Shown here: positions 8,715-10,503 of the stretch, in pieces
Layout of the letters: every line of letters starts with the position of its first letter
Position numbering within the stretch: the first letter of the stretch is position 1
From: Bacteroidota bacterium
Lineage (GTDB): Bacteria; Bacteroidota; Bacteroidia; UKL13-3
NCBI GenBank assembly: GCA_027488905.1
Contig: JAIYAT010000010.1
Span: forward strand, 277,061-341,060
DNA length: 64,000 nucleotides
Direction: 5' to 3'
Made by a program: the position numbers and the translations under genes
Notes under the pieces: generated by a model
What the model was told of the DNA's origin: nothing
What the model saw: only the letters and a program-made list of their open reading frames with translations
The model's database searches: none

Positions 8715-9179
8715 ATGAAGCTAACCTTAATTAGAAACGGTAAACTCCATTTAACTTTTGCCCAGCAGGGATACAATGAATATGCAAAGCGACTTGGTTT
8801 CTATTGCCGCTATAACGATGAATTATTATTGGTTCAAACCAAATCTAAAGAAGTAGAACAAATTAAAAAGGCCGAATCTGAAGCCATTTTAAAAAAGTTA
8901 AAGCCAACTGATTTTGTGGTTTTGTTAGATGAAAGAGGCAAGCAATTTAGCAGCGCTAAGTTTTCACAGCATTTGCAGGAGTGGCTCAATCATCATAGCC
9001 ATATTGTATTTGTAATTGGTGGTGCGTTTGGGTTTACTCAGGAAGTTTACCAAAGGGCAAATTTCCAATTGTCAATGTCTGATTTCACCTACTCGCATCA
9101 GTTAATGCCCATGTTGTTTGCAGAACAATTATACAGAGCATTTACAATTATCAAGGGAGAACCTTATCACCACGAGTAA
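8715..9179 (+). CDS. rlmH: 23S rRNA (pseudouridine1915-N3)-methyltransferase RlmH
   Basis: SPOUT-class methyltransferase that modifies pseudouridine 1915 in helix 69 of 23S rRNA. 154 residues, the normal length. The trefoil-knot region FVIGGAFGFTQEVYQRAN and the C-terminal SDFTYSHQLMPMLFAEQLYRA with final GEPYHHE are near-invariant in RlmH. It follows clpC by 41 bases and may share its transcript. The gene contains one exact copy (8831) of the iterated 10-mer, read there as Val-Gln-Thr. Confidence 0.96.
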   Translation: MKLTLIRNGKLHLTFAQQGYNEYAKRLGFYCRYNDELLLVQTKSKEVEQIKKAESEAILKKLKPTDFVVLLDERGKQFSSAKFSQHLQEWLNHHSHIVFVIGGAFGFTQEVYQRANFQLSMSDFTYSHQLMPMLFAEQLYRAFTIIKGEPYHHE

Positions 9180-9223
9180 TTTTCCTTTCCTTTGCTTAAA
9201 ATTTCTATTGGAGGTGTTAAAAG

Positions 9224-9281
9224 TTTTAGATATATCTTAAACTTTTTCTATTTTAGCGGAAAGTTTAAGATATACCTAGAA
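9224..9281 (+). promoter_or_regulatory. Paired palindromic repeat before the DUF4143 ATPase (putative operator or hairpin)
   Basis: Two 22-base arms face each other: 9224-9245 and 9260-9281, separated by 14 bases; 19 of 22 positions match in inverted orientation. Each arm is itself nearly palindromic around AGATATATCT / AGATATACCT. The right arm ends two bases before the ATG at 9284, so a hairpin or bound protein would cover the ribosome site. Autoregulation is an inference. Confidence 0.5.
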
Positions 9282-9283
9282 TA

Positions 9284-10501
9284 ATGAAGTTAGCATTTCC
9301 AAAAGATTTATTATCTCGCGATACCTATCTTGCCCAGGTTATGCCATTTGTGCAACAGCCTTTAATTAAGGTGTTTACAGGCCAACGAAGGGTGGGTAAA
9401 AGTTATTTGTTGTTTCAGGTTATTCGCAAAATTATAGCCCTAGATAAAAAGGCAAATATTATCTATGTAAACTTTGAAGATATTCAATTTTTGAGCATGA
9501 AGGAGCCAATAGATTTGGTTAACCATGTAAATAAATTGTTTAAAAAGAATGCGATGAATTATGTCTTTATAGATGAGATTCAGGAGTTAAATCAATTTGA
9601 AATAGCCTTGCGTTCACTTTTGTTAAATGAAAATATAGATTTGTATTGTACGGGAAGTAATGCAAATTTATTGTCAACTGATATTGCTGGTAAATTAAGC
9701 GGGCGAGTGATTGAGATAAAAGTGTATAGTTTGTCTTATCTTGAATTTTTAAATTTCCACAAATTGGAAAATGACGAAAGCGCCTTAGATAAGTATTTAA
9801 AATTTGGTGGTTTACCTTACTTAAAAAATTTAAAACTTGAAGAACAAATTGTTTTCGAGTATTTAAAAAATATATATAACAGCATTGCCTATAGAGATAT
9901 CATCAATCGATTTGAAGTAAGGAATGTTAATTTTTTGGAACGATTGGTTCTGTTTTTGGCAAATGAAACGGGCAGTTTATTTTCAGCAAAAAAGATTAGC
10001 GATTATCTAAAATCACAGTTCCATACTGTTCCATCAAGCTTGGTTCAGCAATATGCCAACTATCTGGTGAATGCCTTTTTAGTTCATAAGATACAACGAT
10101 ATGATATAAAAGGGAAAAAGATTTTTGAAGTCGGAGAGAAGTATTATTTTGAAAATTTAGGGTTAAGACATTCTATCGCTGGTTATAAGCTGAATGACCT
10201 TGGTAAGATAAGCGAAAATGCTGTTTGTAATCACTTATTGTTTCTGGGTTATGATGTTAAGATTGGCGTAATTGGTAAGCAGGAAGTTGATTTTGTGGCA
10301 AAAAGAAATAATGAAATCAGGTATGTGCAAGTTGCTTTATCAATTGTTGATCCTTCAACTTTTCAAAGAGAATTTGGGAACTTACAAATGATACCTGATA
10401 ATTTTAGGAAAGAAGTAATTACCTTAAATCAGTTTAATGGAAACACAGTAGATGGCATTTTTCACAGTTCTCTTCGCACTTTCTTATCTTCAACAATTTA
10501 A
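9284..10501 (+). CDS. AAA ATPase with DUF4143 C-terminal domain
   Basis: A 405-residue member of the archaeal-type AAA ATPase group with DUF4143. Walker A is GQRRVGKS (33-40) and Walker B is YVFIDEIQ (93-100). The C-terminal domain has a nuclease-like core, EVDFVAKRNNEIRYVQVA, resembling a PD-(D/E)xK fold whose Lys is replaced by Gln. The cellular role of this family is not settled; many copies occur in Bacteroidota and some may be mobile or defence related. It is followed two bases later by the methyltransferase gene and is preceded by a striking double palindrome (9224-9281). Confidence 0.85.
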   Translation: MKLAFPKDLLSRDTYLAQVMPFVQQPLIKVFTGQRRVGKSYLLFQVIRKIIALDKKANIIYVNFEDIQFLSMKEPIDLVNHVNKLFKKNAMNYVFIDEIQELNQFEIALRSLLLNENIDLYCTGSNANLLSTDIAGKLSGRVIEIKVYSLSYLEFLNFHKLENDESALDKYLKFGGLPYLKNLKLEEQIVFEYLKNIYNSIAYRDIINRFEVRNVNFLERLVLFLANETGSLFSAKKISDYLKSQFHTVPSSLVQQYANYLVNAFLVHKIQRYDIKGKKIFEVGEKYYFENLGLRHSIAGYKLNDLGKISENAVCNHLLFLGYDVKIGVIGKQEVDFVAKRNNEIRYVQVALSIVDPSTFQREFGNLQMIPDNFRKEVITLNQFNGNTVDGIFHSSLRTFLSSTI

Positions 10502-10503
10502 CA

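Follow-up and report, generated by a model that had tools for sequence, protein, structure and literature searches.

In a 64,000-nucleotide window of a Bacteroidota genome (assembly GCA_027488905.1, contig JAIYAT010000010.1, positions 277,061 to 341,060), which is the whole stretch of DNA that we analysed, palindromic DNA runs up to the start codon of a gene for a DUF4143 ATPase. We consider it likely that this DNA is a promoter-operator module that moves with the single-gene PDC-S01/DUF4143 ATPase it precedes, and that the ATPase binds both predicted sites and represses its own gene. The sites, their spacing, their position around a promoter box, their confinement to the promoter, their arrival with the gene and the covariation of one of their bases with a residue of the encoded protein were computed directly (Table 1). 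Physical binding, repression as opposed to activation, any change of state dependent on ATP or phage infection, and any role in defence are inferred.

Two phased dyads around a probable promoter

An earlier note on this DNA had described a double palindrome directly before a DUF4143 ATPase gene, which could act as an operator for autoregulation or as a hairpin that blocks translation, and had supposed that the motif might recur before related genes. The gene is what the note took it to be, as both Pfam domains (AAA_14 and DUF4143) score above cut-off in its product and the Walker A and B motifs are intact. A repeat search recovered the inverted repeat where it had been placed, with arms of 22 nucleotides that are 91% complementary and separated by a 14-nucleotide spacer, the right arm stopping 2 bases short of the ATG at 9284, as well as a further 18-nucleotide near-palindrome at 9219-9246. 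The folding energy of the strand is -32.4 kcal/mol (z = -4.25), matched or bettered by 1 of 200 shuffles, and the 21-base arm motif has three matches in the 64 kb against 0.06 expected, all three within the feature; the inverted repeat is not due to chance. With up to 3 mismatches allowed, a 24-bp palindrome from the feature occurs nowhere else in the 3.55-Mb genome. The arms and the symmetry of the double palindrome thus stand, and its layout is refined: the unit is better read as two dyad-symmetric 24-bp sites in direct repeat at 40 bp, which resemble one large inverted repeat because each site is itself nearly palindromic.

Table 1. Positions in the window of the repeat, the predicted operator and promoter, the gene and the parts of its product.
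Feature	Position	Strand	Basis or detail
Inverted repeat	9224..9281	.	Repeat search; arms 9224-9245 and 9260-9281
Predicted operator site 1, 24-bp dyad AAGTTTTAGATATATCTTAAACTT	9221..9244	+	Centre 9232/9233
Probable -7 promoter box TATTTTAG	9249..9256	+	One mismatch to TAnnTTTG; conserved position between sites
Predicted operator site 2, AAGTTTAAGATATACCTAGAATAA	9261..9284	+	Centre 9272/9273, 40 bp from site 1
AAA_14 + DUF4143 ATPase gene, 405 aa, PADLOC candidate PDC-S01	9284..10501	+	Pfam and PADLOC matches
AAA ATPase domain, residues 28-156	9365..9751	+	Pfam; motif conservation
Predicted winged helix-turn-helix, residues 215-289	9926..10150	+	AlphaFold2 model
Predicted recognition helix, residues 251-263	10034..10072	+	AlphaFold2 model and covariation
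C-terminal nuclease-like domain, residues 303-401	10190..10486	+	AlphaFold2 model, alignment
Stretch without counterpart at the same place in two near relatives (L094, L095)	9177..10503	+	

This arrangement recurs among close homologues. We examined the upstream DNA of homologues at 80 loci (41-63% protein identity, mostly Bacteroidota), and 79 upstreams, window included, were analysed after leaving out two loci with short upstreams (L033 and L042). Direct-repeat autocorrelation, in which each upstream was tested at offsets of 15-89 for its best 22-mer identity, peaks at 40 bp (mean best identity 16.2 vs 12.2 at the next best offset), and 50 of the 79 upstreams have their best offset there. 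Fitting a motif to these upstreams gives two copies, 40 bp apart, of a 24-bp dyad that reads roughly AAGTTWTAATYRTAATTAWAACTT, and the pair scores above 20 bits in 70 of them, window included; this pair motif was fitted on the same upstreams with the 40-bp spacing favoured, and the independent evidence is the autocorrelation. At several loci there is also a third site, again 40 bp farther upstream. Palindrome scoring of the close homologues was uninformative: shuffled AT-rich sequence also scores high, and the symmetry within many sites is no more than moderate (mean 7.8 of 12 pairs). The model R1 matches the gene promoter in 71 of the 80 loci (50 of these belonging to its training set). All but 3 of the 131 model matches in the 80 loci fall at the gene's own promoter, the others being two rows in a partial gene duplicate in L028 and one downstream copy in L063. 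In its own genome the pair model reaches 40.9 bits at this promoter and at most 14.5 bits elsewhere, and it finds no second strong site in the window. The recurrence that the note had supposed is therefore borne out among close homologues, and the outcome that would have spoken against it, homologue upstreams without a similar repeat, was looked for and is not what we found.

The two sites frame a probable promoter. In a flavobacterium, the sequence TAnnTTTG is the sigma-A -7 box, located at -12 to -5, and the median leader is 24 bp (PMC9723704). At 40-bp spacing the gap between the sites is 16 bp, and in the 70 upstreams with a scored pair this gap holds an exact TAnnTTTG in 39 (shuffled mean 1.5), beginning at the identical base in 34 of the 39, and a version with at most one mismatch in 57. 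Because the window's box lies at 9249-9256, transcription is predicted to start at 9261 and to yield a 23-nucleotide leader. With the box at -12 to -5, site 1 spans about -40 to -17, and site 2 runs from the predicted start, its first base, to the A of the ATG, its last. Such placement of sites around the box is operator geometry: repeated dyads lie over the gene's own promoter and are conserved with the gene. Scans for sigma-70-type promoters and terminators between 9100 and 9400 gave no match.

Arrival with the gene

The operator, the promoter and the gene make up a stretch that is flanked by rlmH and a methyltransferase gene. In L094 and L095, the nearest relatives with this neighbourhood, rlmH directly overlaps the methyltransferase gene, leaving an empty site at which the pair model has no match. 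As the pair is missing at the empty sites of these two relatives, the operator pair arrived together with the gene. A close homologue of the gene is present in 2 of 64 genomes of the family, a patchy distribution.

Other loci carry related arrangements. Closely related DUF4143 genes in a Lentimicrobium bin (L012) and a Flavobacterium (L018) sit in different places among capsule-export-like genes, named from their translations, as if they were independent insertions into the same type of locus. In L063, a second copy of the operator repeat (L063:4357-4397), similar to the gene's own upstream, lies about 150 bases after the DUF4143 gene, and could be either what is left of a second copy or a mark of the unit's movement. 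In Gillisia limnaea, the promoter of the gene and its first codons are duplicated exactly over 357 bp (L028:301-657); the duplicate lies about 2.5 kb upstream and adjoins other repeated DNA, part of the region being masked.

Covariation of the sites with the predicted recognition helix

Sixty-seven proteins from the 80 loci and the window were aligned, and the 59 with a scored pair were used for covariation. Residue 251, the first residue of the predicted recognition helix (Ser in the window protein, codon 10034-10036), tracks base 6 of the half-site: proteins with Pro have A in 23 cases, T in 2 and a tie in 3; those with Val, Ser or Thr have T in 24 of 24; those with His have G in 4 and a tie in 1; and of the two with Ala, one has A and one is tied. 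The mutual information between base 6 and residue 251 is 1.12 of 1.31 bits, the next column reaching 0.62. When the base was simulated 1000 times on a tree from which the winged helix had been left out, no run attained the observed value at any of the 405 columns. Half-site positions 3, 7, 8, 9, 10 and 11 showed no protein column above the tree null; at positions 4, 5 and 12 the majority base is invariant.

Loci beyond the 59 were scored for the same code. With the tested base disregarded, 12 of the 17 first-scan loci that lay outside the alignment or lacked a pair exceed 20 bits. Every one of them obeys the code, but they are near kin and most were used in motif fitting, so that the support they lend is weak. 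A new set of 24 genes includes 9 whose pair exceeds 20 bits, L179 among them with an operator identical to that of L014; five of the remaining 8 obey the code (L168, L176, L181, L185 and L190), and L167 does so by plurality.

Proposed mechanism and alternatives

The encoded ATPase itself probably reads the putative sites and autoregulates, since base 6 covaries with residue 251 of its predicted recognition helix. In the mechanism that we propose, two 24-bp dyads 40 bp apart, about four helical turns, with the -7 box between them, would each be bound by a dimer of the ATPase, which would make contact by way of its winged helix and read base 6 of each half-site with residue 251. With site 1 over the region from -33 into the spacer, and site 2 running from the start site to the start codon, the bound ATPase would exclude RNA polymerase and the gene would repress itself. 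Repression is the most likely sign of this autoregulation, judged from the geometry. The operator proposed in the earlier note thus gains support from the conserved pair, the -7 box between its sites and the residue-base covariation.

Several results weigh against this proposal. No pair was scored in 9 of the 79 upstreams, the window's own -7 box has one mismatch, and the window's own recognition helix is divergent. An independent-pairs test on the tree found 4 supported pairs, of which 3.4 go in the expected direction, too few for significance. Two of the 8 new genes (L086 and L192) contradict the code, having Pro with T, and Pro-Gln helices at four further loci (L170, L184, L187 and L188, none with a pair above 20 bits) tend to T. 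Because of these exceptions among new genes and Pro-Gln helices, residue 251 is probably a main determinant within the Asn-Gln helix type and not a universal rule.

The protein could also bind the sites and yet activate its own gene, as some STAND regulators do, STAND-type ATPases being among its structural neighbours. MalT is a STAND activator. IniR is another example of an activating STAND-type ATPase (PMC5760070). Against activation stand the positions of the sites, site 2 covering the predicted start and leader and site 1 covering -33, which are usually repressing positions, and we regard it as unlikely. A palindrome that works as RNA, through a leader hairpin in the mRNA that hides the start codon, was the second suggestion of the earlier note and is less probable still. 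The strand does fold stably, as far as the ATG, and transcripts reading through from rlmH would include both arms; indeed, a leader hairpin formed from both arms would require transcription from further upstream, but the conserved -7 box between the arms predicts a transcript from 9261 that holds the second site only. Sites 1 and 2 are, moreover, more alike as direct copies (17.1/24) than as inverted copies (15.5/24), the direct comparison being better in 40 of 70 upstreams, the inverted one in 16 and the two equal in 14. An Rfam search found no family match, and a hairpin leaves the exact 40-bp spacing, the third copies and the covariation with a DNA-binding helix unexplained.

Host regulators commonly bind palindromic operators that overlie promoters, and a host regulator unrelated to the gene might be what binds here. 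This is very improbable, given that the pair is present once in the genome and arrived with the gene, that it is kept in homologues across the phylum, and that its variable base follows the gene's own recognition helix. Even more remote is the idea that the sites are mobility sequences, ends or targets for movement of the single gene between genomes. The patchy occurrence of the gene, its clean insertion between two genes and the repeat copy downstream of the gene in L063 speak for this idea; set against them, the model matches are almost confined to the gene's promoter, the window has no second strong site, the empty sites lack any such sequence, and a Pfam scan of the window protein found no transposase or recombinase domain.

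The encoded protein

The AlphaFold2 model of the window protein has a mean predicted local distance difference test score (pLDDT) of 89.9 and a predicted template modelling score (pTM) of 0.90; domain names were assigned from predicted secondary structure together with Pfam. Walker A (G33, R35-S40) and D97-E98 are kept in all 67 aligned proteins. The nuclease-like domain retains E311 in all 67 proteins and D336 in all but one of them, and motif III reads Q349-V-A351 in the window protein, so that the ExK lysine characteristic of a catalytic PD-(D/E)XK domain is missing. All 67 proteins have Q349, and all have A, T or S at position 351; because motif III reads Q-x-A/T/S throughout, classical cutting by this subfamily is unlikely.

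In a structure search, the closest matches were the archaeal AAA+ ATPases 2qen (Z 18.1, root-mean-square deviation 3.2, 266 aligned) and then 2fna (Z 17.6, 3.7, 268 aligned), in alignments that cover residues 4-300 of the predicted model and share its order of an AAA domain followed by a winged helix. STAND ATPases, including CED-4 and plant NLRs, are among the structural neighbours of this AAA-winged-helix part, and Foldseek ranks DNA-bound Cdc6/Orc1 (structure 2qby) high. Searches by sequence with the window protein found no relative in the PDB (best E 0.069) and one weak partial match in PHROGs.

The wider DUF4143 family

The window protein matches the PADLOC profile PDLC04787 over residues 8-403 (E = 5e-135), one of the models that make up PDC-S01 (PDLC04786-04792), and ten of ten other DUF4143 proteins tested from a wider set match PDC-S01 models as well. 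The DUF4143 family is also linked to COG1373. The wider set was drawn from 70 genomes spread over the phylum and from the window's own, and 30 of these (own included) carry a DUF4143 gene at E <= 1e-20. Its 63 loci were reduced to 56 by dropping L112, L127, L136, L138, L142, L152 and L159 (truncated, open-ended or with an unsure start). As controls we took 64 further open reading frames of 150 aa or more from these loci; the calls were mechanical, and some of them may not be real genes.

Palindromes scoring at least 9 lie upstream of 31 of the 56 DUF4143 genes vs 5 of the 64 controls, and a palindrome or direct repeat is significant at shuffle p <= 0.02 in 37 of 56 vs 5 of 64 (Fisher p 8e-12). 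Among the significant direct repeats, which number 17, the commonest offset is exactly 32 bp (11 repeats), followed by 22-23 bp (four), 31 bp (one) and 34 bp (one). The operator words differ between genes, L087, L114, L151 and L162 having long near-perfect palindromes of unrelated sequence. Plasmid genes pass in 8 of 14 cases; the repeats in Proteobacteria are of 22-23 bp, and Treponema contributes a perfect palindrome. More distant relatives of the gene therefore share the architecture with other words, which extends the recurrence foreseen in the note.

Individual loci of this set have features of their own. L151 has a perfect palindrome with 29-base arms from -68 to -11 of its DUF4143 gene. 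In L087 and L088, from one genome, long private palindromes lie about 60 bases before the ATG and are directly followed by TAACTTTG boxes that stop 4 bases short of it, which suggests that these transcripts are leaderless. Six loci from six genomes (L131, L133, L134, L135, L158 and L163) share a word around GAGTAAATTTACTC or GAGTAATTTGT, a candidate for another clade-specific operator. One genome (G085, contigs C41 and C81, L147-L149) carries 12 strong DUF4143 matches, some of them adjoining each other.

It is conceivable, if doubtful, that PDC-S01 ATPases are in general sequence-specific DNA readers with private words at helical intervals over their own promoters, intervals that would be about 22, 32 or 40 bp or be replaced by one long palindrome. 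Such arrays would then serve both autoregulation and AAA+ assembly, and the system would switch on once they are vacated, as might happen if a phage upset the cell. The nuclease lysine is missing from the subfamily studied here, whose core activity may be to recognise DNA and not to cut it.

Relation to known systems

PDC-S01 is reported to consist of an ATPase joined to a PD-(D/E)XK-superfamily domain and to rank fourth in frequency among the defence candidates of prokaryotes, most such candidates still awaiting validation (PMC12988326). The window subfamily departs from that description in having QVA at the expected ExK position. In the accessible text of the literature that we found, no mechanism for PDC-S01 is reported (name searches), nor are operators described for the PDC-S01/DUF4143 family, preprints being outside the search. 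The repeats supply PDC-S01 with a predicted DNA ligand, a predicted DNA-reading residue and natural variants of both, and thereby make the open question of what it does accessible to direct binding and reporter experiments.

The fold of the window protein, an AAA domain with a winged helix, is shared with STAND and archaeal AAA+ proteins such as Sso1545, PABY2304, IniR, CED-4 and NLRs. IniR has a similar ATPase domain and likewise binds a promoter, but it does so with a separate C-terminal DNA-binding domain and controls iniBAC, and the accessible text on it describes no own-promoter operator of this kind (PMC5760070). The replication initiator Cdc6/Orc1 is also an AAA+ protein with a winged helix and is bound to DNA in 2qby; it differs in that the sites in the window lie on a promoter, with no origin or replication context seen there.

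A regulatory parallel lies among the WYL repressors of the BrxR or CapW type, which act on defence islands. BrxR is a winged-helix protein that has inverted repeats at its own promoter and represses defence genes, features that the system proposed for the window would share; it is, however, a dimer with a WYL domain and a regulator distinct from the effector (PMC9122601). In the window the candidate effector would be its own regulator, acting on two dyads phased at 40 bp. Autoregulation by a winged-helix repressor of defence is already known from BrxR (PMC9122601), and what is new is a candidate defence ATPase that would read its own private, phased sites. The repeats also suggest how a single-gene system can enter new operons carrying its own control.
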